A stretch of DNA of 64,000 bases, from assembly GCF_000179595.2 (NCBI RefSeq), contig NZ_JH556657.1:416946-480945 (forward strand). Direction: 5' to 3'. The notes beneath the pieces were generated by a model. It was not told the origin of the DNA, made no database searches, and saw only the letters and a list, made by a program, of their open reading frames with translations. Both the position numbers and the translations under genes were made by a program. Source of the DNA: Acetivibrio cellulolyticus CD2. GTDB taxonomy: Bacteria > Bacillota > Clostridia > Acetivibrionales > Acetivibrionaceae. This document shows, piece by piece, positions 547-17,867 of the stretch (the stretch's first letter is position 1; each line of letters opens with the position of its first letter).

Positions 547-1357
547 TTGTAGATAAGTATTCTTTCTTTTCATGAGAAAAGAAAAGTGGCCCTCAAAAAT
601 ACCTTTCAATTTAGTACCTTGATATTTAAAAAAATATTTATTGTGAATTGAAAGCTGTGATTGTATAATGTTCACAATACATTAGTTAACTGCTGAACGT
701 CAATGAATAAAGGCATTAGTGGTGGTGTCATTTTATGCAGCATTATTAAGCTGTAAAGGTGCACCAGAGTGGAGCACTTTTACGATAGCGATTCCAATAT
801 AGGGAATTGAAACTTGTGAATAAACAAAGGAAGCATACTAATACCGAGTTATGACCGGATAATAGGGAATTGAAACAGCATTACAGGAATAGTTGCTTTT
901 GGGTCTGTACCAGTTATGACCTGACAATAGGGATTTAAACTGGAATTTTTAAGATCAGACTATTGGCCAAGAAAGCATGATCTCACAGGCATTAATTTAG
1001 GATTTTGTAGGATAACATAATTGAATGTGAAAATGGCAGAGCAAAACTGGTGCATGGGATATTATGGTATAGTAGCAAGATTTAAATATCCTTGATTGAA
1101 ATGTTATGAAAAAGGTAAAGTACAAAAGTATTTTGCTAAATTACTACAGAATATGCTTTTAGGTGAAGTAAATCCGACAAATTACTGGAGGAATTTTGTA
1201 GAAATATTTACAAAAGGTAAATGTTATAGTAAACTATATACAATATAAGTTAAAGCTGTCAATTGAATATGACAGCTTTCATAATGTTTTAAAGAAGAAA
1301 TATTATACTATCTATATCAGTCTTATTTTACCTTACAGCTACTTGAGGGGGATTTAC
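547..1357. other. Gene-poor stretch between IS remnant and cas operon
   Basis: No supported coding region. It holds a small hairpin (TTCTTTTC/GAAAAGAA near 560-580), perhaps the decayed IS right end, and the decayed CRISPR repeats at 788-940 (listed separately). A perfect 10-bp hairpin AAAGCTGTCA/TGACAGCTTT lies at 1252-1279 without a long T tail. The cas promoter must lie between that hairpin and 1358; TATACT near 1305 is the only candidate -10 I see, and it is weak. Confidence 0.5.
788..940 (+). CRISPR. Decayed three-repeat CRISPR remnant upstream of cas10
   Basis: Three imperfect copies of a repeat related to the main arrays occur at about 788-813, 848-876 and 913-940. Copies 1 and 2 end in AATAGGGAATTGAAAC or TATAGGGAATTGAAAC, and copy 3 ends AATAGGGATTTAAAC. 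Copies 2 and 3 start GTTATGACC. The intervals are 34 and 36 bases, a normal spacer length. The central AATAGGG differs from the ATAAGG of the active arrays, and the decayed repeat at 11,288-11,312 shares the TATAGGGAATTGAA variant. This suggests an older array type. Confidence 0.7.
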
Positions 1358-3319
1358 ATGAGAATGTTTCATTGGAAAGCCTTTATCGAAAATAACATTA
1401 ACTATATTCAGCATGAATTACCTGATGACAGAATTGAATGGGTTGATAAAATAACAGGTACCAAGTTCTATTTAACACATCAAGAATATAATGAATATCT
1501 TTCACTAATTCAAAAAAAAGTTGACTTAAAAAATGCAGATATGATTGTTGAATATCTTAATACAGAAGGAGTTCAAAATTTACTTCCGTATTATGATGGA
1601 AGAACTGAGCCGAAGATTACTTTGAGAGATGCGGCATGGCTTTTTGTTTTATTTTCTTATCTCTACAATGGAAATGGCAATGCCGATATTTACTCCTTAA
1701 GAGAAGAAAGTTACAAAGCATTCTTTGGTGGTACCAGGGATAAGTTCCCTGAAGCATGGAAAGCACTTGAAATTGTAACACAATGTAGTGACTGCCTTGA
1801 TAAATCGGTTTATATAAAAATATTAAAGGGTGGTCCATATAAAATAAAAAAATATTATCTTGAAAATAATGATTTGAAAGATATTAGAGGAGCCAGTACA
1901 CTTCTAACCTATGTTGGAGAGGAAAAGATACCTGAGATAATTGGAAAACGTTTTATAGAGGAATGCCTTATTTATTCCGGTGGTGGGAATGTATTTGCTG
2001 TTTTACCAAGTTGGGCTGACGAAAACATTTATCTTGAACTTGAAAGAACTTTTCATCAGTATACAATGGGTGCTCAAAATGCATTTTATTTAAGTGAAGA
2101 AATAAAACTGGAAGATTTACTTATTAATTATAAAAGCACAATGTATGAGATTGAAGAAAGGCTTTTAGAAAGGGAAAAACATAAAATTTATATTACAATT
2201 CGCCCCAAAAGTGAGTTTTTTAATGACGGATTTTTTTATGTTGAAGATGAAAAGATTGAATTTGAAAATGTTAGTATATCACCAGGAGGAAAATGCAAAC
2301 TTTGTGCAGTGAGAGAGGCAGAGTACTTAATAAAATCATTTGAAGGCATAACTGCTTGTGGAAGCTGTATGCACAAGCATCTTACTGGTGCGATAATGAA
2401 AAAGGGGATTTTAAAGAAATATAAACAGATTACAGGTAAAGATATAAAATGGGCTCAAAAATCCATTGATGATTTAAAGGATAATAAAGGTTACGTATCG
2501 GTAATATATGCCGATGGTAACAATATGGGGGCTATTGTCAGGGATATTGAAAATTTGGCAGATATGATGTTCTTTAGTAGAAGGACTTCTCAGATTGCAC
2601 AAAAAGCATTATTTAAATCGTTATATGAATTCTACCCAGATAAATTTGAGGTTGTTGCTATTGGAGGGGACGATATTTTTGTAATAGTTCCTGGAAAAGA
2701 TTCTATCGAATTTACGGCGAGAATGATCCAAACTTTCAACAATGAGTTTAAAAACTTATCGTCAGAGGAAAATGAGCAGAGGTATTCAGCAACCCTATCT
2801 GCTGGTATTTGTATTGGAAAATACAAGACTCCAATTCGATTAATGGTGGAGCAAGCTGAAGAAAAAATGAAGAATGCCAAAAATCTTGTAAGAACTGATA
2901 AAGCCTGCTGTAACGGAAGTCTTGATTTTGTGGTCATTAACGATATAGGACAGACAGCAAATCAGGATATGTCTGACAAGGGCAATTGTGGCGAAGTAAA
3001 ATATTCCTTACTACCATATAACTTGGAGCGGGCTATGGATATGGTTAATCTAGTAAAGGAACTAAAAAATAAAAGAGTTAAAAGTAGTTTGAATGGCCTT
3101 TTACGGGCATTTGAGAAAGCCGAGTCAAAGTTGGAGATGCAGCTCTTTTATAGCTACAATCAAGTAAGAAACAAAAACAATATCAATAATAATATAAAGT
3201 CAATAACTGGACTTAAGTTTGAAAATGGCATATTAGTATCTTCTTTAGAAGATGGCAGATCATTTTCTCCATGGAGGGATATTCTTGAAATGTGGGACTT
3301 TTGTGGGGGTGAAAATTAA
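1358..3319 (+). CDS. cas10: Cas10, type III CRISPR large subunit (HD-less, GGDD intact)
   Basis: 653 residues from ATG 1358, chosen because GAGGGGG lies 7 bases upstream; a TTG at 1343 is possible but has no ribosome site. Palm 1 carries DIRGAS near residue 175 and YADGNNMG around D386. A CxxC pair of treble-clef type is at C313/C316 and C334/C337. The GGDD cyclase motif is at 436-439 in palm 2. No N-terminal HD nuclease motif is visible, so single-strand DNase activity is not expected. The family binds crRNA-guided Cas7/Cas5 subunits and makes cyclic oligoadenylate when target RNA is bound. Its stop overlaps the next start by one base. Subtype assignment (III-D-like) rests on the neighbours. 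Confidence 0.9.
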   Translation: MRMFHWKAFIENNINYIQHELPDDRIEWVDKITGTKFYLTHQEYNEYLSLIQKKVDLKNADMIVEYLNTEGVQNLLPYYDGRTEPKITLRDAAWLFVLFSYLYNGNGNADIYSLREESYKAFFGGTRDKFPEAWKALEIVTQCSDCLDKSVYIKILKGGPYKIKKYYLENNDLKDIRGASTLLTYVGEEKIPEIIGKRFIEECLIYSGGGNVFAVLPSWADENIYLELERTFHQYTMGAQNAFYLSEEIKLEDLLINYKSTMYEIEERLLEREKHKIYITIRPKSEFFNDGFFYVEDEKIEFENVSISPGGKCKLCAVREAEYLIKSFEGITACGSCMHKHLTGAIMKKGILKKYKQITGKDIKWAQKSIDDLKDNKGYVSVIYADGNNMGAIVRDIENLADMMFFSRRTSQIAQKALFKSLYEFYPDKFEVVAIGGDDIFVIVPGKDSIEFTARMIQTFNNEFKNLSSEENEQRYSATLSAGICIGKYKTPIRLMVEQAEEKMKNAKNLVRTDKACCNGSLDFVVINDIGQTANQDMSDKGNCGEVKYSLLPYNLERAMDMVNLVKELKNKRVKSSLNGLLRAFEKAESKLEMQLFYSYNQVRNKNNINNNIKSITGLKFENGILVSSLEDGRSFSPWRDILEMWDFCGGEN

Positions 3320-3882
3320 TGACGAATCCAATAAGCAAGATTTACAAAGTAAGGTTTAAACTTAGATCACCTTTACATATAAGCTCAGGTAATAACGGTG
3401 ATGGAATAACGAAGTCTGCCAAGGTAGGGATTGAACCGTTCATTCCTGCATCAACTATAAAAGGTAAAATAAGAAGCAATTTTAAAAGCTTATTGCCGGA
3501 TAAGTGCTGTAACAATGAACAATCTGGCACTAGCTGGTGTGAATGCCCTGTGTGTTCGATATTTGGAAAAGCTGGATATCAACCATCCAGAATATATATA
3601 CAAAATTTAAAGTATAACGGAGAGAAGGATCTGGATACTTTCGGTATCAGGTCTACTGTGGCAATAGATAGGTTCAGAAGAGTTGCCAGGGATGGTTCTC
3701 TGGCATTTACCGAAGTTATTGATAATGGATCATTTGAAGGTGATTTGGAAGTTTACTATTCTGGAGATTCTATCAATTATGAAAAACAGTTAATAGCTGC
3801 TATTAAGATGATTGAATCAATTGGAAAAGGTAAAAGCCGAGGATGGGGCTTTGTTGATGTGGAGGTGACGATTCTTGAGTAA
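3319..3882 (+). CDS. Short Cas7-like RAMP protein (Csm3/Csm5 group)
   Basis: 187 residues, starting at an ATG that overlaps the cas10 stop. The N-terminal RAMP strand is followed by FIPASTIKGKIR (41-52), the IPGSSLKG-type loop of Cas7 proteins. A CxCxxC cluster (C74, C76, C79) before IFGK is the usual zinc site, and a glycine-rich GKGKSRGWGF segment closes the fold. The loop that carries the target-RNA-cleaving Asp in Csm3 reads TKSAKVGIEP here, so no catalytic Asp is seen. It probably forms a non-cutting backbone or capping subunit. A glycine-rich C-terminal end is complete despite the short length. Confidence 0.8.
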   Translation: MTNPISKIYKVRFKLRSPLHISSGNNGDGITKSAKVGIEPFIPASTIKGKIRSNFKSLLPDKCCNNEQSGTSWCECPVCSIFGKAGYQPSRIYIQNLKYNGEKDLDTFGIRSTVAIDRFRRVARDGSLAFTEVIDNGSFEGDLEVYYSGDSINYEKQLIAAIKMIESIGKGKSRGWGFVDVEVTILE

Positions 3883-5047
3883 AGTTAGTATCAGGCTTGA
3901 AGAGCCCCTTATGGTTGGTGGAAAGAGATTAGCCGACAATGTGCTTGAATCTCTTGATTATATACCTGGAAATGTAATGAGAGCGGCTTTGGCGAAGTAC
4001 ATACTTTTAAGCTGTCCTCTGTACGATCACAGAAAGCCAGATGAGCTAGGCAGATATAACTATGTTTATGTCAGGGATGAAACCAGTTGCAGTAGATGCA
4101 AATTCAATAACGCCTGCAGGGAATTTTCAAACATTCGTATTTCATTTTTTTATCCAGAAGGCTATGATATTATTCCATTAACTTCAAAGAAGTGTAAAAC
4201 ATATATGGATCATGGTTTTAAAGATATTCTTACAGGAGTTGAAACATCAGAATGTGAAGAATGCATGAAAATAAACCGACAGGGTTCCGGAACAGCTTTT
4301 TTAGGGAGGATGGAGTTTGCAAATGGGTTCAGACATGGAAAAGAAAAGTGTACTCCTGGGAGATATAGTTTTACGCGGACTTCTCTTGATGAATATACAT
4401 TGACTGCACTTGATGCCAGTCTTCACTCAATCAATGTTGTTGAAGGTGGAATTATTTATGAAGGTGAAATAAAAGGTTTCGAAAGCTTAAATTTAAATCC
4501 TGGTAAAATGCTCTATGTTGGCAAGTATACATCAATTGGATTTGGACATGTGAAGATTATGGGTGTCAAGGACAAACCGGAAAGAAAAAATCTTATTGAA
4601 TTACTAGGAGAGTTTAATAAAAATATAAGAACAAAATTACCTCGAGATGCAGAAAAGTCGTACATACCCATACTTTTTAGGAGTGATGCAAAGCTTGGAA
4701 TTGAAGAGCTTTGTACAGATACACCATTAAGCGACAGGGAATACAAGCAAATATGGGAACGACTGGTGTTAGGTGATAATCCTTGTGGATTCCAGATTGA
4801 GCAGGTTTTTTCTGAACAAGATATTTATAAGGGGTACGATACATCAAAAGAATTGGAAAAATGGGAAAGAAAACCTTGTGTTTTTACTAAGAAAGGCACG
4901 TCCGTTTTGATGTCTACTAAAAAAAGGCTGGAAGATATAGTAGAAACTCTTATTTCGATGGAAACGAAAGGAATAGGGAAGGATACCTATGATGGCTTTG
5001 GTGAGATAGAAATATGCAACGAATTGCATGTTAAGGGGGGGATATAG
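3875..5047 (+). CDS. Csx10-like RAMP protein (Cas5-group subunit)
   Basis: 390 residues. The TTG start at 3875 is supported by GGAGGTG 7 bases upstream, and it overlaps the previous gene by 8 bases. The N-terminus (RLEEPLMVGG, then YIPGNVMRAALAKYIL) follows the Csx10 pattern of a RAMP strand plus an IPG..RGALA loop. Two cysteine clusters follow (C72/C75/C81 and the CEEC pair near residue 128), each probably binding zinc. A second RAMP half ends in a KGIGKDTYDGFGEI glycine-rich loop. Csx10 is the Cas5-type subunit of type III-D, holding the crRNA 5' tag at the foot of the complex. The Csx10 name is by resemblance, not a search result. Confidence 0.7.
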   Translation: MSKVSIRLEEPLMVGGKRLADNVLESLDYIPGNVMRAALAKYILLSCPLYDHRKPDELGRYNYVYVRDETSCSRCKFNNACREFSNIRISFFYPEGYDIIPLTSKKCKTYMDHGFKDILTGVETSECEECMKINRQGSGTAFLGRMEFANGFRHGKEKCTPGRYSFTRTSLDEYTLTALDASLHSINVVEGGIIYEGEIKGFESLNLNPGKMLYVGKYTSIGFGHVKIMGVKDKPERKNLIELLGEFNKNIRTKLPRDAEKSYIPILFRSDAKLGIEELCTDTPLSDREYKQIWERLVLGDNPCGFQIEQVFSEQDIYKGYDTSKELEKWERKPCVFTKKGTSVLMSTKKRLEDIVETLISMETKGIGKDTYDGFGEIEICNELHVKGGI

Positions 5048-5518
5048 ATGGATAAGAAGACTCTGATTCAATATGTAGAAGAACTGGCATCAAAAACGGA
5101 TATAAAAGATTGCATTTCAGATAATGACGGAAAAGATAGTCTTGGAAAGTCACAATTTAGGTCTATCGCAGAATTGTGTGCCAAAGCAGATTTCTATGAG
5201 GAAATAAAGCTTTTAATAGAGTATAAGGAATCTAAAGGAAACGGATGGGATAAAAACATTGCAAAACCAGGCATGGCATTGAGTCTAGACCCAGAAGGAT
5301 ATTATTTCTGGGATAAAAACATTGCAAAATCAGGCTTCATAACTTGTGGCGAAGTAATCGTTAGATACATGGAAAACATAAAGAAGCAGTCCTCGGAAGT
5401 GGATGTTTTGAAAAACCTTGAACTCTTTTTCGGATATATGCACTGGAAAGCTAATGTACTATGTAAAGAGAATAAGAAGGGCAACGAAAAGAGTAAAGGA
5501 AAGGGGGAGTATAGGTAA
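5048..5518 (+). CDS. Small helical type III subunit, Csm2/Cas11-like, with an internal duplication
   Basis: 156 residues, mostly predicted helix, starting directly after the Csx10-like stop with GGGGGG upstream. The stretch SQFRSIAELCAKADFYEEI resembles the SQLR helix of Csm2/Cas11 small subunits, which line the belly of type III complexes. Residues WDKNIAKPG and WDKNIAKSG are 21 residues apart. At DNA level, about 27 bases are repeated almost exactly 63 bases apart (5246 and 5309), so an in-frame tandem duplication has occurred. The C-terminus is Lys/Glu-rich. It could instead be a Csx19-type accessory; the Cas11 role is inferred. Confidence 0.55.
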   Translation: MDKKTLIQYVEELASKTDIKDCISDNDGKDSLGKSQFRSIAELCAKADFYEEIKLLIEYKESKGNGWDKNIAKPGMALSLDPEGYYFWDKNIAKSGFITCGEVIVRYMENIKKQSSEVDVLKNLELFFGYMHWKANVLCKENKKGNEKSKGKGEYR

Positions 5519-6282
5519 TGCTTTTTGATGTTTTTAAATCAAGAGAAGTGATAAAGGGTAATATAGTTGCGTTGAAGCCTATTCATATCGGAGTAGGTGA
5601 GGATAGTATTGACCCTGTACAGGTTGATTCACCTGTCCTGAAGGACTCAAGGGGGCTTCCTGTAATACCCGGTTCTTCTCTTAAAGGTGTGCTGAGAAGC
5701 AGACTTGAGGCTATACTTGCAAACCCGGCTTTTGAAGGCAAATGGAGAAGCTGCAATATACTGGATGACAGTAGAAACTGTTATGAGAAGATTTCAAAGG
5801 ATGGTAATGTAAAAGCTATAAAGGAAGAGATAAGAAAATCCGGTGACAACACACAGAAAAGGTACCGGGACTATGCAGAAAAAATATATTCAATGAGCTG
5901 TGACGTGTGTAAATTATTTGGAAACGGTCATATTGCGGCGAAGTTACAAATAAAGGACATGCTTTGCGTGGATACGGAAGTGAACTATGAACGGCGTGAT
6001 GGCGTGGGTATGGACCGGGATACCGGTACAGCCAGTAGGGGTGCAAAGTACGGATTTCAGATTGTTCCAGCAGGTATAAGGTTTGAGTTTTATATGATTG
6101 CAGAAAACCTTGAAGATGAACAGAAAAAATTAGTAGAACTTTTAATCAAAATACTTGAAGAAGGTGACATATCTATAGGAGGAATGACTTCAAGAGGACT
6201 TGGACAGATAAAATTAATAGATACTGACAGAAAAAATATAGACGCGGGTACAATTTTTAAGCATTATAACTTAGAATGCTAG
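5518..6282 (+). CDS. csm3: Csm3-like Cas7 RAMP with candidate catalytic aspartate
   Basis: 254 residues; its start overlaps the previous stop (TAATG). The N-terminus reads LKPIHIGVGEDSIDP, then VDSPVLKD and LPVIPGSSLKGVLRS. D37 in VDSPV sits where Csm3 carries the aspartate that cuts bound target RNA every six nucleotides. A C128/C131 CxxCKLFGNG zinc motif, MDRDTGTASRGA and a GGMTSRGLGQI glycine loop complete the Cas7 signature. Among the four Cas7-like proteins in this operon it is the only one with an aspartate in this place, so it is the likely slicer subunit. The gene symbol is by family resemblance. Confidence 0.85.
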   Translation: MLFDVFKSREVIKGNIVALKPIHIGVGEDSIDPVQVDSPVLKDSRGLPVIPGSSLKGVLRSRLEAILANPAFEGKWRSCNILDDSRNCYEKISKDGNVKAIKEEIRKSGDNTQKRYRDYAEKIYSMSCDVCKLFGNGHIAAKLQIKDMLCVDTEVNYERRDGVGMDRDTGTASRGAKYGFQIVPAGIRFEFYMIAENLEDEQKKLVELLIKILEEGDISIGGMTSRGLGQIKLIDTDRKNIDAGTIFKHYNLEC

Positions 6283-6292
6283 GAGGTATACA

Positions 6293-7099
6293 ATGTTTAG
6301 GGAACTGGTAAATGAGTGTAAAATCAAATTTGTATTAAAAGCCGAAGGACCTGTCTTGATAAGATCTGGAGAGAATATGGATCTTGACCCTATGCTTCCT
6401 AGTGTTAAGTTTGTAAGAAGTTTTCATAATAATGATTATAACGTTGTCATACCTGGAAGCAGTATAAAAGGTGTATTCCGGAGCAGAGTGGAAAAGCTTC
6501 TGAACGGTAGTTGTAAAATTGTCTCGAAAAATTATTACGACAGTTGTTCATCCAAAATTGGTAATTTAGATAGAAACAATAAATATACAATGAAGGTCGA
6601 GGATAAATACAAAGAAAGTTGTAACGCATGCAAGCTGTTCGGAAACATGTCCATTAAGAGCAGGATCGAATTTAAGGATGCCTACCCGGAAAAAGATACT
6701 GTCAAACTTGCAAATAGATATAATGTAGGAATAGACAGGGTTACAGGAGCAGCAAAGGATAGTGCTTTGTTTGAACCTGAGGTTTTGGAGGCAGGTACAT
6801 TTGAAGCAGAAATAATTATTAAGAATTTTTTCCTCTGGCAGTTAAAAGTTTTAATTCAGGTATTTGAGGACATTAATGAAGGATATGTAACATTTGGTGG
6901 AGTAACTTCAAGAGGTTTTGGAAGGATGTCCGCTAACAGTATAACTTTTTCTGTTAGGGAATACGGGGCTGCCGAACCAGGGCAATTCTATAAAGAAAAG
7001 ATAATGAGCAAAGACGAAATAGAGGAGAAGTTAAAAAGTGTTACATTTTCTGAAAATGAAACAGGAAAGGTGAAGTTTAACAATGAGCATATTTTATGA
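6293..7099 (+). CDS. Cas7-like RAMP protein, second copy
   Basis: 268 residues with AGGAGG about 7 bases before the ATG. It shares the layout of its upstream neighbour: GPVLIRSGENMDLDP, VVIPGSSIKGVFRSRVEKLL, CNACKLFGNM, GIDRVTGAA and GGVTSRGFGRM. These mark it as a paralogue arising by duplication. The catalytic position (VDSPV in the upstream copy) reads MLPSVKF, so an Asp is not obvious; D30 and D32 are close but appear out of register. A backbone subunit of the crRNA complex is the most likely role. It overlaps the next gene by 17 bases, which implies translational coupling. Confidence 0.8.
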   Translation: MFRELVNECKIKFVLKAEGPVLIRSGENMDLDPMLPSVKFVRSFHNNDYNVVIPGSSIKGVFRSRVEKLLNGSCKIVSKNYYDSCSSKIGNLDRNNKYTMKVEDKYKESCNACKLFGNMSIKSRIEFKDAYPEKDTVKLANRYNVGIDRVTGAAKDSALFEPEVLEAGTFEAEIIIKNFFLWQLKVLIQVFEDINEGYVTFGGVTSRGFGRMSANSITFSVREYGAAEPGQFYKEKIMSKDEIEEKLKSVTFSENETGKVKFNNEHIL

Positions 7100-7934
7100 T
7101 TTTGTAGATATACTTGGGCCTTCACCATTTGATACAGAAAAAACTGAAAGAGAATATACTGGTAAGCTAGTTCTTGAGATGGAAACCCTTTCACCGGTGT
7201 TTGTCGGGTCCGGTTTTGAAAAGTCGGAGAATGAAATTTTATATAAAAGTTTTATTCGTTTTTTAGATAAACCAGTTATTCCCGGCAGCTCGATAAAAGG
7301 TATGCTCAGAACTATATGCCAGGCTGTCTCGTACAGTTGTATAGATGTGGGTAAAAGAATAAAAAAAGATTTACCGTATAAATCCGATAACTGCAATTGT
7401 ATTGTATGCAATACCTTCGGGAAAATGAAACTTAGAAGTCGAGTGAACATTGGTGATTTTGTACTTGAAAAAGGAGAGCAGGACATAATAAGGATACCTA
7501 TTCAAATGAATCCACATATAGAAAATAAGGATATCTATTACTCTCAAGATGGAAAGCTGAGAGGTATCAAGTTTTACAGACATGGAGATTACAGAATACT
7601 TGAAAATACTAAAATAGCTGTTGAGACCGTAACCAAAGGCGGAGTATTTACAGGAGAGATAATATTTCATGGCCTTCTAAAACAGCAGCTTGAGCTTTTA
7701 TGTTATGCACTTGGGTTGGATGAAAGTTTTCAGCCAAAGGTAGGAGGCAATAAATCAGGCTTTTTCGGAAGCTGCGTTTTTAAAGTCAAGAGGGCTGTAT
7801 TGGACAGTGAAGATTTTGATCCTTCAATGTATGCAAAGAGTTATGGAGCTAGTGATACAAGGATAGAACAAAATAAGAAAAAGCTTTGTGAAATACTTAG
7901 CTTTGATAATAGGATATTATCATTATGGGGTTGA
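7083..7934 (+). CDS. Cas7-like RAMP protein, third copy
   Basis: 283 residues. Motifs in order: LVLEMETLSPVFVGSG, KPVIPGSSIKGMLRTI, CNCIVCNTFGKMKLRSR (zinc motif and FGK), ETVTKGGVFTGEI and VGGNKSGFFGSC (glycine-rich loop). No aspartate stands at the Csm3 catalytic site (ILYKSFIRFL). The longer C-terminus and position near the end of the RAMP series fit a Csm5-like cap at the crRNA 3' side, but this is inference. The start codon lies inside the preceding gene, with no strong ribosome site of its own. Confidence 0.75.
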   Translation: MSIFYDFVDILGPSPFDTEKTEREYTGKLVLEMETLSPVFVGSGFEKSENEILYKSFIRFLDKPVIPGSSIKGMLRTICQAVSYSCIDVGKRIKKDLPYKSDNCNCIVCNTFGKMKLRSRVNIGDFVLEKGEQDIIRIPIQMNPHIENKDIYYSQDGKLRGIKFYRHGDYRILENTKIAVETVTKGGVFTGEIIFHGLLKQQLELLCYALGLDESFQPKVGGNKSGFFGSCVFKVKRAVLDSEDFDPSMYAKSYGASDTRIEQNKKKLCEILSFDNRILSLWG

Positions 7935-7938
7935 TAAG

Positions 7939-8460
7939 ATGAATAAAACAAGGGGACTTCTTGAAACTGCATTAAGGTTTTCCGAATTTGGTGATCAGGG
8001 AACAATAAGAAAAGTTGCTAATATAGCCCAAAGATTAAGCGGCAATGAGGATACCAGTGAGTTTGTAAAACTGATGATACTCTACCTGGATAATTTAGAT
8101 ATTTTGGGCGGTGGAAATAACGATAAGACAGCGGCTAAGGCAAGATTTAAGGAATTTGTTAGCCAGTGGCTGAAAATAAAACAGATAAATGGGGAGATTA
8201 AATGGGAAAATGCTGAATTAAGGGAATTAGACCCGGAAGAACTGGCTTATGTCCTTGGGTGGGCAGGAAGAATAGCTAGAAAGTATAGCAAAAAAGTATC
8301 ATCTAATACTGCTTATTCTTGTGGGTTGAAAGCAGAGATAAAGAAGAGACCGGAAGATGATACAACAAGGTACACTAATAAGGCTGAGGAAGAACCTGCT
8401 AAAGATTATGATATGGATAAAATGCTTAATTTATTGCAGAAGAAATTTCAAAAAAATTAG
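7939..8460 (+). CDS. CRISPR type III-associated helical protein of unknown function
   Basis: 173 residues from ATG 7939 with GGGG 8 bases upstream. A GTG at 7888 inside the previous gene would add 17 residues but lacks a ribosome site. I do not recognise the family with confidence. The first 120 residues look all-helical (ETALRFSEFGDQGTIRK, FKEFVSQWLKI, ELAYVLGWAGRIARKYS). The charged tail is low in complexity and ends in DMDKMLNLLQKKF, a possible short docking helix. Helical content and position between RAMP genes and effector suggest a small-subunit-like (Cas11/Csm2-type) or regulator role. There are no catalytic motifs. Confidence 0.5.
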   Translation: MNKTRGLLETALRFSEFGDQGTIRKVANIAQRLSGNEDTSEFVKLMILYLDNLDILGGGNNDKTAAKARFKEFVSQWLKIKQINGEIKWENAELRELDPEELAYVLGWAGRIARKYSKKVSSNTAYSCGLKAEIKKRPEDDTTRYTNKAEEEPAKDYDMDKMLNLLQKKFQKN

Positions 8461-8488: not shown

Positions 8489-9004
8489 ATGGATATATGG
8501 AAAAACATTGGTAATATTGCTTCGATTGCATCTATTATTTCTGTAATACCGGTTACCTTGTCATTATTCATTCTTGTAACCGAAAAAAGGAATAGGCAAA
8601 AAAACTTAGAGAATATAAGAAGATCCAACCCAAGGGAAAAATCATGCGTAGTGATTATTGATGTTGGTGATAAAGATGTATCAATGCGTGAAAGCGTTGA
8701 ATCTTGGATGTATGATCAGCCTGAATTCAAGAGCTATCCGAAGGAGAACATATTTCATGTTTCCTACATAAAGATAGTAACTGAAAGTGATATAGATGAC
8801 CTGCTAAAAAAAATAAGGGCAGTTCAAAAAAAGGTTATGTCTAAAGGCACACGGCATATTCATCTTTTCGCTAGAGGACCGCTTGCCTTATCTGCTATGC
8901 TTGGAGTAGAATTTAAGAATTGCTGTCCTGTTATATTTTATCAAAGGGATACTACAACGAATAAGGACTATATAAATTGGGGCCCGATTCAAAGGCCAAA
9001 TTGA
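8489..9004 (+). CDS. Membrane-anchored SAVED/CARF-like protein, candidate cyclic-oligonucleotide effector
   Basis: 171 residues with GGGGG about 10 bases before the ATG. Residues 8-31 form one hydrophobic membrane span, followed by a basic stop (EKRNRQKN), placing the rest in the cytoplasm. The soluble part starts with a strand CVVIIDVGD and has a helix DDLLKKIRAVQKKV. It then reads HIHLFARGPLALSAMLG and CCPVIFYQ, which resembles the ligand-binding half of SAVED domains (a CARF-like Rossmann fold). At about 120 residues it is only one half of a usual SAVED domain, so it would need to dimerise. No nuclease, protease or TIR motif is present. Its position, with a GGDD-intact Cas10 upstream, suggests it senses cyclic oligoadenylate and acts at the membrane. 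Confidence 0.6.
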   Translation: MDIWKNIGNIASIASIISVIPVTLSLFILVTEKRNRQKNLENIRRSNPREKSCVVIIDVGDKDVSMRESVESWMYDQPEFKSYPKENIFHVSYIKIVTESDIDDLLKKIRAVQKKVMSKGTRHIHLFARGPLALSAMLGVEFKNCCPVIFYQRDTTTNKDYINWGPIQRPN

Positions 9005-9017
9005 AAGGTGATTAAAG

Positions 9018-9971
9018 GTGCTATCTAAAGAAGAAATAAAGCTGAATAAGCTTGAATACATAAAATTAAAAGTAACTCTGAAATGTATGGAGGACTGTAT
9101 TTTGCCCGCTTATTTAGGCTCTACCCTGAGGGGAGCCATAGGCAGGGAGTTAAAAAAGCTTTCTTGTATGTCTCCTAAACAGGCCGATTGCAGGAAATGT
9201 GCAAACACACATCTATGCTGCTACACAAAAGTGTTTTCAAGTGTTACAAATGAACACGATGGGTGGGGAAAAGCGACAAATGCCCTTCCAAACCCTTTCA
9301 TAATTGAGCCGCCTATGGATTGCAAAAGAGATTATTATGCTGGGGAAAATCTATGCTTCAATCTGATTTTTATAGGAGATGGTATTTCATATTTACCGTA
9401 TTTTATTTTTGCAGTAAATGGGATGGCTGTTAATGGCCTTGGAGTCAGTAGGAAAAAGTTTGCACTTGAAGGGGTTGAAAGGTTTGATACTGGTGAAAGC
9501 ATTTTTATAAACGGAGTATTTGATCATACTGCTGTGAAGTTAACAAAATGGGAAGACAAAACATATGAAGGTAAGGTGGATGAGGTATCTGTGAAATTCC
9601 TTACTCCATTTAGGTTCAGACTTGATGGAAAGATGTATGATAGTCTAAACTTTGAAATATTTTTAAGAAATATTTTAAGAAGGATGTCCATGCTTGCTTC
9701 CTGTTACTGCGGTGGTGAATGGCAAATTAACTATAAGGATTTGTTGGAAAAGTCAAGAACTATTGCAGTTAAGAGGTTAAATACAGAATGGCACGATTGG
9801 GAAAGGTATTCAAGCCGTATTCAAGGGAAAGTTAAAATGGGTGGAATTGTAGGCGAAGTAGTATTTAAGGGAAAGTTATCACCTTTTTTGCCTTATATAA
9901 ATATTGGGAGTGCACTACATATAGGTAAGGGATGCACTATGGGGCTTGGAAAATATGAGTACAAGACATAG
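9018..9971 (+). CDS. cas6: Cas6 crRNA-processing endoribonuclease
   Basis: 317 residues from GTG 9018, with AAAGGTG ahead. The N-terminal RAMP half reads LPAYLGSTLRGAIG and has a four-cysteine CRKC..CC cluster near residue 60. The C-terminal half reads WERYSSRIQGKVKMGGIVG, then LPYINIGSALHIGKGCTMGLGKYEY, the glycine-rich signature of long Cas6 proteins. It cuts the array transcript within each repeat. The gene directly precedes the leader and array 1. Its last 50 codons are repeated in degraded form at 12,263-12,402. Confidence 0.9.
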   Translation: MLSKEEIKLNKLEYIKLKVTLKCMEDCILPAYLGSTLRGAIGRELKKLSCMSPKQADCRKCANTHLCCYTKVFSSVTNEHDGWGKATNALPNPFIIEPPMDCKRDYYAGENLCFNLIFIGDGISYLPYFIFAVNGMAVNGLGVSRKKFALEGVERFDTGESIFINGVFDHTAVKLTKWEDKTYEGKVDEVSVKFLTPFRFRLDGKMYDSLNFEIFLRNILRRMSMLASCYCGGEWQINYKDLLEKSRTIAVKRLNTEWHDWERYSSRIQGKVKMGGIVGEVVFKGKLSPFLPYINIGSALHIGKGCTMGLGKYEYKT

Positions 9972-10167
9972 AATAGTAAAAGTATAGTCTGCTAATTTTC
10001 CAACCTTGATTTTAGTATATATTGCTATGGACCTTGAAAATAGAATATTGTACAGATCCTTATAGTAAAATTATAATAGTATGATGTTGGCTGGAATAAA
10101 GTCTTGAAATGCCTACAAAAAAAGACTTCCAGGTAATGTTGATTTTTGAAATGCAGTTTTGATATTG
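9972..10167 (+). promoter_or_regulatory. Leader of CRISPR array 1
   Basis: An AT-rich 196-base stretch between the cas6 stop and the first repeat. It contains a hairpin (AAGTCTT/AAGACTT, about 10,100-10,131) that is kept in the leader of array 2. Repeats next to it are perfect and those at the far end are decayed, so this is the leader side. Confidence 0.75.
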
Positions 10168-11376
10168 GTTATGACCTAACATATAAGGAATTGAAACCCG
10201 TTTGCATTGTTAACAAATTCTGAATTTGTTCTTTTGTTATGACCTAACATATAAGGAATTGAAACCCTATTGCATTACTTGGCTTATTTGGTAGCTTTGT
10301 CTGTTATGACCTAACATATAAGGAATTGAAACTTATTTTTATTTAAACATAATATAAATGATGTTCGAGTTATGACCTAACATATAAGGAATTGAAACTC
10401 AGTCAAATACAGCTTATATCTTCGAACATCATTTGTTATGACCTAACATATAAGGAATTGAAACGCACTTTCCATTAATGGTCTTATGTATTTTGTATCA
10501 AAGTTATGACCTAACATATAAGGAATTGAAACACGACTATCCCACAGGTGGTAATTCCACAATAGGAGTTATGACCTAACATATAAGGAATTGAAACGTT
10601 AATGATAATTCAAATTGATAATAATTTAAAGAGTTATGACCTAACATATAAGGAATTGAAACATTGCATTTTGGAGCTCTATGCTCATAATTCCCCACTG
10701 TTATGACCTAACATATAAGGAATTGAAACCAAGGAATCTTTACCTAATAGGTATTCCTTGCGAGTTATGACCTAACATATAAGGAATTGAAACCTGTCTG
10801 CTTCTTGTCTGTTCTTGATAGGGTCATCGTTATGACCTAACATATAAGGAATTGAAACTCTAAAACAGTACAACGATATCCAGACCAATCATCCTGTTAT
10901 GACCTAACATATAAGGAATTGAAACTTCATGCAAAGCTCAATGTTCCAGGTATAGTAATTGTTATGACCTAACATATAAGGAATTGAAACTATTGCTATT
11001 TTGGTTATTACATCAGCTTTATTAAAGTTATGACCTAACATATAAGGAATTGAAACATTCTAGATTTATATTTTGACCAAAGCTCTATTGGGTTATGACC
11101 TAACATATAAGGAATTGAAACTTGAAGTTTAGGCCTTCTGTAACTGTATCTTCCAGAGTTATGACCTAACGTATAAGGAATTTAAACTATACAGATTGTG
11201 TAACAGTCTGATAAGGTTCTCCGTTATGACCTAAAATATAAGGAATTATAACATCCAAAGAAGTACTGTTATAGAAGTCTTTAAGAGGTATCCTAATATA
11301 GGGAATTGAAGCATAACATTAACTTTCTTATATGCCTTAATAAAACATTATGACCTATCATATAAGGAACTGAAGT
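10168..11376 (+). CRISPR. CRISPR array 1, 19 repeats (15 perfect)
   Basis: The 30-base repeat begins GTTATGACCTAAC and ends GGAATTGAAAC. Copies start at 10168, 10236, 10303, 10369, 10435, 10503, 10568, 10633, 10700, 10764, 10829, 10896, 10961, 11027 and 11092 (all identical). Four mutated copies follow at 11158, 11223, about 11286 and about 11347. Spacers are 34-38 bases. The GAAAC 3' end is typical of type III-associated repeats handled by Cas6. Decay at the far end is expected of the oldest units and fixes the polarity. Spacers 3 and 4 share 13 bases in opposite orientation, and spacers 1 and 9 are palindromic (see findings). Confidence 0.97.
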
Positions 11377-11419: not shown

Positions 11420-12151
11420 GTGGATAAGATTGATTTAAAAAAACACTTTTTAGGATTGCAGAAACAAATGACTTCAAGGTTAATGGCTAATAGGGAGTCT
11501 ATCATTCATCCAGGAACAAAAGGAGATGCTTCAGAGTTAAATTGGATTGAATGGTTAAAAGCATATTTGCCAAAGAGATATAATGTGGGAAAAGCTTTTA
11601 TAATAGACTGTAAAGGGAATATTAGTGATCAGATTGATGTCGTTATATACGATCAACAATATTCACCTTTTGTATTTAACCAAGATGGTGCTATCTATAT
11701 TCCTGCTGAAAGTGTTTATGCAATATTCGAAGTAAAACAGGAACTTAATAAAGACTATATTAAGTATGCTGGAGAAAAAGCAGAAAGTGTTAGATCATTA
11801 CATAGAACATCGACAAATATATATCATGCAGGAGGTAAATATGAGCCTAAACAGCCATTGAAAATATTATCTGGCATACTTACATTGACAAGTTCATGGA
11901 ATCCGCCATTAGGGGATAGCTTTGAAAGTGTAATAATGGGTTTGGAACCTAGTCAGTCGCTTGATATTGGGTGCGCCCTTAAAGATGGTGCGTTTAAGGT
12001 AATATATGATAAGAGTATATCAATTCAAAAGAGCAACAACGAAGAATCTTTAATTTTTTTCTTTTTAAATCTTTTGATGGAATTACAAAAGGTAGGTACA
12101 ACTCCAGCTATTGATATAATGTGTTATGCTGAATCACTAGATTCAATATAA
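11420..12151 (+). CDS. DUF6602-like protein, putative PD-(D/E)XK nuclease
   Basis: 243 residues; GTG start with AGAAGAGAG upstream. The middle reads GDASELNWIEWLKAYLP, then ISDQIDVVIYDQQYSPFVF and IPAESVYAIFEVKQEL. This is the E...D...ExK order of the restriction-endonuclease-like fold as seen in DUF6602: E34 in the first helix, D71 in QIDVVIYD and E103/K105 in FEVK. Such proteins are often found in defence islands; the activity is not established. The gene lies between the decayed end of array 1 and the duplicated cas6 tail of array 2, so it probably arrived with that rearrangement. The C-terminus (FFFLNLLMELQKVGTTPAIDI) matches the family's closing helix. Confidence 0.65.
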   Translation: MDKIDLKKHFLGLQKQMTSRLMANRESIIHPGTKGDASELNWIEWLKAYLPKRYNVGKAFIIDCKGNISDQIDVVIYDQQYSPFVFNQDGAIYIPAESVYAIFEVKQELNKDYIKYAGEKAESVRSLHRTSTNIYHAGGKYEPKQPLKILSGILTLTSSWNPPLGDSFESVIMGLEPSQSLDIGCALKDGAFKVIYDKSISIQKSNNEESLIFFFLNLLMELQKVGTTPAIDIMCYAESLDSI

Positions 12152-12262
12152 CACATTATTAATTAGATGAGTAGATAGTTTATTGAGCAAAAACATGATT
12201 ATAGGAATATTGTAGATTTGTTAAGAATCATACCTTAATACTGGTGTTATCAGCAATAAGTT

Positions 12263-12402
12263 GTTCAAGCAGAAATAAAAGGTGCGGAATTATGGGCGAA
12301 GTAGTATTTAAGGATTTTTTGACGTATATAGATATTCGAAGTATACTATATATAGTTAAGGGATACTCTATGGGGCTTGGAAAATATGAGTACAAGACAT
12401 AG
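12263..12402 (+). pseudogene. Duplicated 3' fragment of cas6
   Basis: From TTCAAG near 12,263 to the TAG at 12,400-12,402, the DNA matches the last about 150 bases of cas6 (9820-9971). TATGGGGCTTGGAAAATATG and the stop are identical. A deletion of about 12 bases and several substitutions have removed the coding sense. It has no start and no function as a gene, and it marks the left edge of a duplicated block that carries the array 2 leader. Confidence 0.85.
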
Positions 12403-12597
12403 AATAATATAAGTATAGTCTGGTAAATTTCCAACCTTAATTTTAGTATATATGGCTATGGACCTTGAAAATAGAATATTGTACAGTTTCTTATAGTAAA
12501 ATTGGAATAGGATGACATTGGTTGGAAAAAAGTCTTGAAATGTCTAGAAAAAAGACTTCCAGATAATATTGACTTTTGAAATGTAGTTTTGATATTG
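12403..12597 (+). promoter_or_regulatory. Leader of CRISPR array 2, diverged copy of the array 1 leader
   Basis: Collinear with 9972-10167 throughout, including GCTATGGACCTTGAAAATAG and the AAGTCTT/AAGACTT hairpin. Scattered substitutions suggest an old duplication. It ends at the first array 2 repeat in exactly the same register. Confidence 0.8.
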
Positions 12598-13191
12598 GTT
12601 GTGACCTAACAAATAAGGAATTGAAACATCCAAAGTGTTCACATTTACAGATGATTTTGACAGTTGTGACCTAACAAATAAGGAATTGAAACCACGGAAA
12701 ATACATTTTATGGTTACTATAATCTAAAGTTGTGACCTAACAAATAAGGAATTGAAACTGAATCTTATTCCAGATATAACGAATAGTTAGTAGTGTTGTG
12801 ACCTAACAAATAAGGAATTGAAACTCCATTCTTGATAATACATCTTCTGCTTCTCCCCGGTTGTGACCTAACAAATAAGGAATTGAAACACGTATTCTGG
12901 GTTATTTGTCATAAGGTAATTATTGTTGTGACCTAACAAATAAGGAATTGAAACTTCGCAAGTTGAAAGGCTTTTATTGCGCTTATTACGGTTGTGACCT
13001 AACAAATAAGGAATTGAAACATAGTGCCACCATTACCATACGAGCCTATAACCCCGTTGTGACCTAACAAATAAGGAATTGAAACTATACACCAAGAATT
13101 AAAGCCATAAGCGGCGCCTCCTATAGTTGTGACCTAACAAATAAGGAATTGAAACATTTTGCTTTCTTTTTGCTGCCTGTTGTGACCTAAC
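12598..13191 (+). CRISPR. CRISPR array 2, 9 full repeats plus a truncated one
   Basis: The 30-base repeat begins GTTGTGACCTAACAAATAAG and ends GAATTGAAAC. It differs from the array 1 repeat at two positions (A to G at 4, T to A at 15). Copies start at 12598, 12663, 12729, 12795, 12860, 12925, 12991, 13056 and 13126, all identical. A tenth copy at 13179 stops after GTTGTGACCTAAC, where IS21-derived sequence begins. The last spacer is only 23 bases (13156-13178); the others are 35-40. All full copies share the two substitutions, so the variant was fixed before the array grew or spread by recombination. The old end was lost to the insertion sequence. Confidence 0.97.
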
Positions 13192-13244: not shown

Positions 13245-13432
13245 CTGTTTGGGGTGGTAAACCAATATACCAGCAAACATCAATCATCTTGACATCAAAT
13301 AAGGTTGTCTCTGAATGGGGAGAATTTATGGGTGATCCAGTGATAACTACAATGTTAGACAGGTTGGTGCACAAATGTGAGATATTTGCTATGGACGGTG
13401 ACAGTTACAGGCTTGCTCATCGGGAATCATGG
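13245..13432 (+). pseudogene. istB: Second istB (IS21) 3' remnant, frameshifted
   Basis: LFGVVNQ in one frame is followed after a shift near 13,262 by [20 protein letters not shown], then [20 protein letters not shown] and HRESW. This is the C-terminal part of an IS21 helper ATPase. The open frame runs on to 13,513 through unrelated sequence. It differs from the istB tail at 273-509, so two separate IS21 elements left debris at the two ends of the CRISPR island. Confidence 0.75.
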
Positions 13433-14123: not shown

Positions 14124-15299
14124 ATGAACACATACTACGTTGATCTACATGCCCATATTGGACGATCTTCAAAAGGTAAAGAAATAAAAAAGGCTACAGC
14201 AAATAATTTAACTTTTGAGAATATTGTATATGAATCATATAGAAAGGGTATAGACATTATAGGAGTCGTTGACTGCATAAATCCCTACGTTTTAGAGGAT
14301 ATTGATGACTTGATTTATAGAGCTGAACTAGTTGAAAAGGATGAGGGGGGCATGGCGTACAGAGGAAAACAGACCATTATACTAGGCGCTGAGATTGAAA
14401 CGCATGAGAAACATGGTTGTAGCGCACACTCTTTATGTTTTTTTTCGACATTAAAGCAAATAAAGGAATTTTCAAATGAGATGAGCGAGCATGTAAAAAA
14501 TTTAAGGGTTTCTAGTTTAATGAGTAGGTTAACTGGACAGGATCTATTCAACATTGTAGACCAACTAGAAGGTATATATATCCCGGCACATGCTTTTACA
14601 CCACATAAGGGCTTCTATGGCAACTGTTGTGATTCGTTGCATGATATATTCAATGCTCAATCTTTCGAAAAAATGCCGGCTATAGAACTTGGGATTAGTG
14701 CAGATTCTATGATGGCAAGCCAGCTAAGTGAATTAGATGGAAAATCATTTATAAGTAATTCTGATGCCCACTCCTTGTCGAAGATTGGAAGGGAATATAA
14801 TATATTTGAAATGGAAAACTCAACATTTGAGGAGCTTATTAAAGCTTTAAGGAGTAAAAACGGAAGAAGAGTAAAAGCAAATTACGGACTAGACCCTAAG
14901 CTGGGGAAATATCATAGGTCATACTGTCAAACTTGTGATGTAGTTATTGAGGGTAAGCCTCCTGTGATTAAATGTCCTATTTCAGATAAGCATCAAGTAG
15001 TAATAGGAGTGAAAGACCGACTCGAAATGATAAAGGATCGTTATAATCCTAAAATGGATGGTAGAGCGATGTATAACTATCAGATACCATTAGAGTTTAT
15101 ACCTAAGGTCGGACCAAAGACTATTGACAAGCTAGTGAACCATTTCGGAAGTGAAATGAAAGTGCTTCACGATGCAAGTTATGATGATCTTTCAAAAGTA
15201 GTGAATGATGAGATAGCAAAAAATATTGTACTTGGAAGAGAGGGTAAACTTGGTATTGAAGTTGGGGGCGGAGGAATTTACGGAAGGATAGAACGTTGA
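14124..15299 (+). CDS. Endonuclease Q-like PHP-domain protein
   Basis: 391 residues with AAAGGTGG 10 bases before the ATG. The PHP metal sites are visible: DLHAHIG (7-13), an AEIETHE histidine, the H in IPAHAFTPHKG, and SNSDAHS near 220. A cysteine-rich zinc motif follows (YCQTCD, then IKCP), and then a helix-hairpin-helix-like GPKTIDKLVNHFG. This is the EndoQ order, an enzyme that nicks DNA 5' of deaminated bases and abasic sites. Many database entries still call it TIGR00375. A second, truncated copy sits beyond the IS66 element. EndoQ assignment is by domain order. Confidence 0.75.
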   Translation: MNTYYVDLHAHIGRSSKGKEIKKATANNLTFENIVYESYRKGIDIIGVVDCINPYVLEDIDDLIYRAELVEKDEGGMAYRGKQTIILGAEIETHEKHGCSAHSLCFFSTLKQIKEFSNEMSEHVKNLRVSSLMSRLTGQDLFNIVDQLEGIYIPAHAFTPHKGFYGNCCDSLHDIFNAQSFEKMPAIELGISADSMMASQLSELDGKSFISNSDAHSLSKIGREYNIFEMENSTFEELIKALRSKNGRRVKANYGLDPKLGKYHRSYCQTCDVVIEGKPPVIKCPISDKHQVVIGVKDRLEMIKDRYNPKMDGRAMYNYQIPLEFIPKVGPKTIDKLVNHFGSEMKVLHDASYDDLSKVVNDEIAKNIVLGREGKLGIEVGGGGIYGRIER

Positions 15300-15413: not shown

Positions 15414-17039
15414 TCATTTTTTGAAGCACTTTTTATGTTTATGATTCAGCCTGCATTCTTCCGGTAAATCCTTTGACCAAGGCAGGTACTTGTCCAGAAG
15501 TTCTGGGTGGTTTTTAAAATCTGTATTAGGCATTGCTTCAAGGATATATTTTAGATACTCATACACATCCAAAATATTTGCTTTAGCAGATTCCACCAAT
15601 GTATAAAGGATCGCATTAGCAGTTGCTCCCTTTGGAGTGTCAGCAAAAAGCCAGGCTCTTCTTGCTACGGCATATGGTTTGATATTTGCCTCGCAAAGAT
15701 TGTTGGAGATGGGAAGCCTTCCGTCTTCTAGAAATGTTTCAAGATACTTTTTTTGATTCTTAGCATAATTTAGAGCTTTTGTCAGGTTCTCATTTGTAGT
15801 AGAAATTGCAGAGGTCTCTTCAACCCATGACCAAAAGGCATCAAGAATGGCACGTGACGCCTCCTGACGCTTCTCTTTCTTTTCGTCATATGACAGTTCC
15901 TTTATCTCATCTTCCAGTTTGAAGAGAAGATTGATGAATTCCCTTCCTTCAGCTCCTTTGGAACCCGAGATCTCTTTTCCTTTATTGTCCAGCGGAATAC
16001 TTTCTATGAAATAGCGTCGACAATGAGCCCAACAAAGATTTCTTTTAATGTTCTCCGCTTTCTCATAAGCACTATACGCATCCGTGGTTAGATATCCATG
16101 AAACCCTTGTAATAGTTGCTTTGCAACATCACCGCTTCGGCTTCTGGAATAGTGGAAGAAAGCTGCCTTGATCTCTTCACAAGCTGCACTTCGCATGACC
16201 CACATGAAAGAATCACTGCTAGCTTGTTTGCCTTCTTCCTTATTACACTGGATTCTTGTTTCATCCATGTGAAGGACTTCGCATTTTAAAAGCTCCTCAT
16301 GAATCCGGTTGTAAATCGGAGCCAGCCATTCTTCACTACACCGAATCGTCCAGTTTGCCATATTAGATCTTGGTAGCACCATACCTATACGGTACCAATC
16401 GTTCTCTTGACGGTTGAAAGGAATCCCCATTGCAAACTTCTGATACATGACTTGTGCCACAAGGGATGCAGTTGCTATGGAGTGTGGCAGAACTGAAGTT
16501 GGAACCGCAGCTTTCTGGAAATGGTCTTTGGGATTTTCGCTACCTTCATTTCCACAGTTGGTACACTTAGCAACTTCCTGGAGAACCTGTACTACTTTCA
16601 GTTTTGACGGAATAAATTCCACTTCTGTGCGTACAAGCTTTTTACCAATGACTTTCAGTTCTGCTCCGCACTCGGAACAGTTTTCTTCCGGAGGAATGAT
16701 ATATTCCTCCACCTCTTTCGGAATATTTACAAGCATTTCAACTCTGACACCAGGCTGTCTGGCAGTTCTTTGGTGGCTTGGAACGGTTATTTTTTTCTGT
16801 TCCTTAAATAATTCCGCTGCCAGTTCCTGCGTTGTTTCAAACAGATTTATTTGTTCGCCTGTCTGTCTGGTAATCTCAGAAGGGCTACCAAATAGTTTCT
16901 TGCGAGCGTGCAGGAGAGCCTGAATCATGTTCTCAAGCTGGATATTTTGTTTTTGAATGATCTTATCTTTTGCTTCAAGTTCCTGCTTTTGTTTTTCAAC
17001 TAAAGCCCGAAGCATTTCCAGTTCTTCATGTTCTGTCAA
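15414..17039 (-). CDS. tnpC: IS66 family transposase TnpC
   Basis: 541 residues from a TTG at 17,039 with AAAAGGACG upstream. The N-terminal coiled coil is followed by KKLFGSPSE, then the IS66 zinc finger (CSECGAEL and CTNCG). The DDE core has D in HMDETRI, D in YLTTDAYSAYE and E in NNLCEANIKPY. It is the DNA-cutting transposase of the element. The 3' end of the gene runs into the IS left-end hairpin. Confidence 0.95.
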   Translation of the reverse strand: MTEHEELEMLRALVEKQKQELEAKDKIIQKQNIQLENMIQALLHARKKLFGSPSEITRQTGEQINLFETTQELAAELFKEQKKITVPSHQRTARQPGVRVEMLVNIPKEVEEYIIPPEENCSECGAELKVIGKKLVRTEVEFIPSKLKVVQVLQEVAKCTNCGNEGSENPKDHFQKAAVPTSVLPHSIATASLVAQVMYQKFAMGIPFNRQENDWYRIGMVLPRSNMANWTIRCSEEWLAPIYNRIHEELLKCEVLHMDETRIQCNKEEGKQASSDSFMWVMRSAACEEIKAAFFHYSRSRSGDVAKQLLQGFHGYLTTDAYSAYEKAENIKRNLCWAHCRRYFIESIPLDNKGKEISGSKGAEGREFINLLFKLEDEIKELSYDEKKEKRQEASRAILDAFWSWVEETSAISTTNENLTKALNYAKNQKKYLETFLEDGRLPISNNLCEANIKPYAVARRAWLFADTPKGATANAILYTLVESAKANILDVYEYLKYILEAMPNTDFKNHPELLDKYLPWSKDLPEECRLNHKHKKCFKK

Positions 17040-17178
17040 TGGTATACACGTCCTTTTTTATCTGGTTTAAGTATACCACTTTTTAATGCCTTTTTCTATA
17101 TTTTAGGAGATATTAATGGGCAAAAAAATGCTGATTTTATGCGGGTTTTTAGCCGTTTTTTCGGCATATTCACCAACC

Positions 17179-17553
17179 CTAATAACAGGTTTTTTCGGCA
17201 CTCATTTCAACAGAATAATGTGCCTTTTTCTGTTCTATATTAAGTCCCTGAAAGAGCCATTCCATCTGCTGTAATGTAATCTCTTTTACTTCCGACGGGC
17301 TCTTGGGCCATTGAAACTTCATTCCTTCCAAAAGCTTCTTGCTGGCAAGGATAAACCCATTTTTATCATATCTCAAAACTTTAATAGCTGTTTTTCTTTT
17401 ATTGCAGAAGATGAAAGCGCAGCTGTCTGAAAATGGATCGAGTTTAAACTGTAGATTCACAATCGCCACCAATCCATCAATCTGCTTCCGAAAATCTGTG
17501 GAATTACAGGCTATGTAGATATGTTCAGCTCCCTGGGTAAATCCGCCTAACAT
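17179..17553 (-). CDS. tnpB: IS66 accessory protein TnpB
   Basis: 124 residues. The start GAEHIYIACNSTDFRKQIDG and the middle CAFIFCNKRKTAIKVLRYDKNG are diagnostic of the IS66 Orf2 family, which is needed for transposition but has no known catalytic motif. The start overlaps the end of tnpA by 7 bases, so the two are likely translated together. The 140-base gap before tnpC carries no recognised feature. Confidence 0.93.
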   Translation of the reverse strand: MLGGFTQGAEHIYIACNSTDFRKQIDGLVAIVNLQFKLDPFSDSCAFIFCNKRKTAIKVLRYDKNGFILASKKLLEGMKFQWPKSPSEVKEITLQQMEWLFQGLNIEQKKAHYSVEMSAEKTCY

Positions 17554-17867
17554 ATTGAACGCAGTGCTTTTAACACTGTTGCTAGCAACTGAAGATCAGT
17601 CTTTTCGTGTATATCCAATACAAAATTGTCATACCGTATTGTGATGGAAGCAGAACCCGGATGCCTTATCACTTCTTCTGGAATTTTCATTTCTGCCCAG
17701 CATATATCTGTTGCTGAGTTCTTTTGCTTATTGAGTCTTGTAAGCCAATATTTGTAGGTTGACAATTTTATATTATTTTTTTCACACCATTGCCTAGCAG
17801 ATAAGCCACTGGCTTTACAATCTAAAATTGTCTGCTTCCATATTGTCTCGGATTTTCTTTGTGCCAT
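17547..17867 (-). CDS. tnpA: IS66 accessory protein TnpA
   Basis: 106 residues. The N-terminal helix-turn-helix reads WKQTILDCKASGLSARQWCEKNN, then STYKYWLTRL, typical of IS66 Orf1, a probable DNA-binding partner. The start MAQRKSET has AGGAGG a few bases upstream. It is first in the element's three-gene operon. Confidence 0.92.
   Translation of the reverse strand: MAQRKSETIWKQTILDCKASGLSARQWCEKNNIKLSTYKYWLTRLNKQKNSATDICWAEMKIPEEVIRHPGSASITIRYDNFVLDIHEKTDLQLLATVLKALRSIC

Follow-up and report, generated by a model that had tools for sequence, protein, structure and literature searches.

A second CRISPR array behind a diverged copy of the leader and cas6 tail in the type III locus of Acetivibrio cellulolyticus CD2

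Introduction

Two CRISPR arrays stand in tandem in a type III locus of Acetivibrio cellulolyticus CD2 (genome of 6.16 Mb in 10 contigs), and the second has its own leader, a slightly different repeat, and a piece of cas6 in front of it. The question that this locus raises is where the second array came from. Among the ways in which multiple arrays originate, a 2026 survey lists array-fragment duplication, horizontal transfer, and splitting (PMC12814883); several arrays per locus are common. An earlier note on this DNA had proposed that array 2 was founded by copying a leader-repeat segment together with part of cas6. Here we follow up that proposal in the stretch of 64,000 nucleotides that was analysed, hereafter the window, and in comparisons with other genomes.

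Layout of the locus

All elements of the locus lie on the + strand, in the order cas operon, cas6, leader 1, array 1, nucC, cas6 fragment, leader 2, array 2, and IS21 istB remnant, with an effector gene just ahead of cas6:

1343..8460, + strand, type III (III-D-like) cas operon (Pfam, NCBIfam, PADLOC)
8489..9004, + strand, gene for a small SAVED/CARF-type membrane effector (PF18145 1e-8; PADLOC CARF 2TM 7e-26, SAVED_TM 2e-24)
9018..9971, + strand, complete cas6, the apparent source of the copied tail (PF10040 2e-17; PADLOC Cas6 9e-98)
9972..10167, + strand, leader 1, between the cas6 stop and the first repeat, 89% identical to leader 2
10168..11376, + strand, array 1, with 30-nt repeats: 15 perfect copies, followed by degenerate copies at 11158, 11223, ~11278, and 11347
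11420..12151, + strand, nucC endonuclease gene (PADLOC NucC 1e-103; PDB 6p7o NucC E 6e-61)
12258..12402, + strand, decaying copy of the last ~50 cas6 codons (block alignment; codon comparison)
12403..12597, + strand, leader 2, copy of leader 1 (174/195 aligned bases identical)
12598..13191, + strand, array 2, with nine identical variant repeats and a last repeat truncated after 13 nt
13259..13426, + strand, IS21 istB gene remnant (PF01695 E 3e-17)

The operon comprises cas10, a Csx10/Cas5-like gene, a Csm2-like gene, four RAMP Cas7-like genes, and one small ORF. By PADLOC its subtype appears closest to III-D (Cas10 4e-85, Cas5_IIId 1e-20, III-D small subunit 4e-43), and the NCBIfam Csx10 model scores 63 bits, below its cut-off of 177. 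The small ORF (7888-8460), for which there was no convincing family match, is kept at the same place in the relatives L107 and L111. The sole cas1 found in the genome lies 365 kb off, in a type I-like locus whose repeats are unrelated to those of arrays 1 and 2. That separate locus (L045, G000:C7:783000-802000) has cas1, cas2, cas4-like, and cas3-like genes and an array with ~136 copies of its repeat. Elsewhere in the window, PHP/HhH-domain paralogues (14124-15299 and 18299-19333, the second copy N-terminally shorter) flank an IS66 transposon (15414-17867).

The gene separating the two arrays, which the earlier note left unnamed, is nucC, predicted to encode an effector nuclease; residues 6-238 of its product match the solved NucC structure, so that the similarity is full-length. 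NucC is already known as a type III effector, for example in the III-B system of Vibrio metoecus (PMC8682760). As in the type III loci of Vibrio metoecus and Serratia (NucC structure PDB 7zgv), nucC here is found beside the cas10 operon; unlike in those loci, it is placed between two arrays. In another member of the class (L095, G294), a nucC relative lies directly behind cas6 and is followed by the array. Compared with DUF6602 genes on Acinetobacter plasmids, nucC has 67-71% nucleotide identity over 230-280 bases, which suggests wide transfer of the gene.

The duplicated block

The earlier note had seen the block 9820-10197 recur, diverged, at 12,263-12,627 and run on into array 2. Our alignment bears this out and moves the start slightly further upstream, to near 9808/12258: the source (~9808-10197) and the copy (~12258-12627) are identical in 322 of 379 columns (85%, E 7e-122), and the copy continues directly into array 2. 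A search of the whole 6.16-Mb genome returned these two copies of the block only. Identity within the block is 83% of aligned bases, plus gaps, for cas6 positions 9803-9930, 95% for the cas6 end (9931-9971), and 89% for the leaders, while the first repeats of arrays 1 and 2 agree at 28 of 30 positions. The counts of differences, 21/195 in the leader and 20/145 in the cas6 fragment, would not alone prove ongoing selection on leader 2; an identity profile was also tried as proof of such selection and set aside, the differences between the parts being small.

Upstream of ~9808/12258, between nucC and the fragment, no homology to cas6 was found, the nucleotide score there being equalled by 227 of 1000 shuffles. 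A candidate protein match that would have carried the cas6 copy upstream of 12258 (NYKDLLEKSRT against DYRNIVDLLRI) was no better than shuffles and was rejected.

The two arrays and their repeats

The perfect repeat of array 1, GTTATGACCTAACATATAAGGAATTGAAAC, occurs in 15 copies, and that of array 2, GTTGTGACCTAACAAATAAGGAATTGAAAC, in nine copies at 12598-13155. The two forms differ by A4G and T15A, which are present in nine of the nine full array 2 repeats, in agreement with the two fixed changes (GTTGTG and AACAAAT) reported in the earlier note. Repeats are thus uniform within each array (9/9 and 15/15), degenerate far-end copies of array 1 aside. Because these older, degenerate copies keep A4/T15 wherever they can be read, the array 2 form is probably the derived state. 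The last 15 nt of the repeat are the same in both arrays, and its last 8 nt, ATTGAAAC, we take to be the known crRNA handle. We asked whether A4G and T15A strike partner bases of a stem or keep an inverted repeat, and random-mutant tests on the window pair gave no signal.

At its far end, array 2 closes with a spacer of 23 nt and a repeat broken off after 13 nt, at 13191, with the IS21 istB remnant just behind it. No spacer is common to arrays 1 and 2, although a shared one may have been lost with the truncated far end of array 2. Shared spacers are to be expected in recent whole-array copies and are not required in old or leader-only copies.

One array 1 spacer, number 10 (10794-10828), matches the gene for a phage terminase large subunit in antisense, the orientation that type III RNA targeting needs; 30 of its 35 nt are exact in two viral contigs (IMG/VR; L151 and L153) and 29 in a third (L152). 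This match argues that array 1 was fed by phage. Three array 2 spacers were searched and gave no viral match, and no exact repeat was found in the viral contigs. A pair of array 1 spacers (3 and 4) that appeared to be overlapping reverse complements proved to be at chance level against shuffles. We infer that array 1 and array 2 alike are transcribed and processed and continue to take up spacers.

Fate of the cas6 fragment

Forty codons of the fragment can be aligned to cas6, of which 11 are changed, none synonymously, and the 17 substitutions are spread 9:4:4 over the codon positions. Glycines of the conserved end are among the residues lost (GSALHIGKG to RSILYIVKG). As a control we used three intact cas6 duplicates from another genome (G721, described below), which are of broadly similar nucleotide divergence and in which 49-62% of changed codons are synonymous. 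The difference in synonymous share from the fragment is significant (Fisher P 9e-5 to 2e-3) in a test of 40 codons, the contrast being weaker when the control genes are cut to their last 41 codons, where changes are few. Because none of 11 changed codons is synonymous, against about half or more in the intact duplicates, the sequence appears to have decayed as a fragment; that is, it probably diverged free of protein constraint after being cut off, and not as a working gene. The fragment marks both the source and the direction of copying.

Recurrence in other genomes

To ask whether such copies recur, we took 110 cas6 matches (Pfam PF10040) in the source organism's phylum with their surrounding DNA and compared the cas6 end, the 450 bases after it, and the sequence flanking every array. 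A leader copy ahead of a second array was found in at least seven other genomes among these 110 loci (G003, G005, G321, G479, G541, G638, and G721), the leaders being between 69% (G003) and 97% (G321) identical. First repeats look alike in the youngest pair, that of G321, and are identical in G638. The second arrays of G541, G479, G003, and G005 carry a variant repeat that is uniform within the array except for truncated or decayed last copies, as array 2 does here. Five divergent pairs, one of them that of the window, together show 15 repeat changes, all of which lie outside the last 8 nt (P 0.017 for evenly spread changes, treated as independent in this small sample). The changes also spare the whole of the last 13 nt (P 0.0006), a cut-off picked after seeing the data. 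Such a spared 3' end fits a single Cas6 serving both arrays.

The layout in G003 (L064, 7366-9890) is as in the window: cas6, leader, short array, a Csx1 gene on the opposite strand, copied leader, and variant-repeat array, whose last repeat is also truncated, near a transposase-like gene. Copies of the cas6 tail also occur with no array in G007 and G395; those of G007 (L048, 9914-10107 and 11052-11287) are two tandem orphan copies with following sequence. Another apparent remnant, a cas6 tail in G005:C1, proved to be a frameshifted full-length gene.

The G721 locus (L161/L162, G721:C16:35000-70000) resembles the window in having copied cas6-leader-array units, a broken extra cas6, and variant repeats, and differs from it in scale, since its 35 kb contain nine arrays with homologous leaders and three intact copies of cas6. 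The broken cas6 has an internal deletion that joins the gene to a copied leader and array, and two further cas6 fragments are also present. Repeats in its pattern-matched copies vary only in their first 14 bases; as the last 23 bases were already fixed in the search pattern, this observation is illustrative only, and the locus was left out of the spared-end test.

The searches returned no near relative that shares the leader or the repeat, so that the order of events is read with no outgroup, and the cas6 query against genome contigs gave no match. A Csx7 query found relatives of the operon, the nearest of which, L107, has no related cas6 or array.

How array 2 may have arisen

The copy lies 1.2 kb downstream of array 1 in the same orientation, as local duplication predicts. 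We think, at a probability of roughly 0.75, that array 2 arose by local duplication, decay of the cas6 fragment, regrowth from the copied leader and first repeat, repeat drift, and truncation by an IS21 element; the recombination route is our inference. Under this account, the cas6 piece would have had no function in its new place and decayed, while the copied leader would have remained usable, with new spacers inserted at its first repeat. In CRISPR adaptation, new spacers copy the leader-side repeat, and uniform variants therefore need no special spreading process; each addition would have copied the first repeat with its two changes through array 2. An IS21-family element would later have removed the far end. 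Both changes leave intact the final 15 nt of the repeat, where the Cas6 cleavage site and the 8-nt crRNA handle lie; the one Cas6 is therefore probably able to cut the transcripts of both arrays and so supply a shared type III complex, which would then signal to NucC.

Another origin, that array 2 is what is left of a separate related CRISPR locus, transferred horizontally with a complete cas6 and later stripped of its cas genes, could draw on the differing repeat and leader, on a nucC of a mobile kind with matches on Acinetobacter plasmids, and on the adjoining IS remnant. An arrival from another replicon with its own complete cas6 is also what the earlier note had named as speaking against its reading. 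The cas6 tail argues otherwise, because changes that are exclusively nonsynonymous disfavour an array 2 that arrived with its own functional cas6; moreover, the array 2 repeat was not found in other genomes of the family or in viral contigs, and neither the leader nor the repeat matched a plasmid. Together with the position of the copy, these results make a horizontal origin quite unlikely. That array 2 is merely a piece of array 1 split off by an insertion, the leader never having been copied, would suit two adjacent arrays in the same orientation, but an insertion into an array cannot create a full leader and cas6 tail, and we give this idea practically no weight.

A closer competitor is that cas6, leader, and array were all duplicated as one unit and that the extra cas6 was later reduced to its tail, for example by nucC entry or a deletion; this departs from our preferred account in how much was copied at first. 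Such a stage can be seen in G721, where leader and array accompany each of three intact cas6 genes and a fourth with an internal deletion; in the window, however, no further cas6 sequence could be traced between nucC and the tail. We regard this course as possible, if rather less probable. nucC itself stands between the block copies with no second copy, so that a simple tandem duplication needs either later loss or later nucC insertion. With the far end of array 2 and whatever lay behind it gone, the copy may have been a minimal leader-repeat segment or something larger that included nucC or a complete cas6. The proposal of the earlier note thus holds as to the derivation of array 2 from a cas6-adjacent leader and repeat, given the cas6 fragment with its nonsynonymous-only changes and the cases in other species, and says more than the locus shows in limiting the copy to a leader-repeat segment, given the far end truncated at the IS21 remnant, where a copy of the full array could have lost its older spacers.

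Significance

The duplication is real and local, and is an instructive case of a known process, not a new mechanism. It belongs to the same class as the array duplications beside one cas locus in the survey cited above (PMC12814883), but, unlike in those cases, the copied leader here brought part of cas6 along and the changes in the repeat are fixed; a count of identical consensus repeats would miss the window pair for that reason. In open-access papers we found no account of a cas6 fragment carried along with a duplicated leader, although one may exist elsewhere.

A broader and distinctly doubtful conjecture is that the cas6-leader-array segment is a repeatedly duplicating module in the type III loci of the phylum, with leader pairs bracketing a slot where leader-leader recombination brings in or exchanges signalling effectors (nucC here, Csx1 in G003), which would link array duplication and effector turnover.

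The array copying seen here is an ordinary but little-documented route of CRISPR memory expansion, and the cas6 scar offers a sequence mark that gives direction to the birth of a new array. The comparison set suggests that the repeats of duplicated arrays drift everywhere but at the Cas6-cut end, which raises a testable point, namely which parts of the repeat are free to change while one Cas6 serves several arrays.
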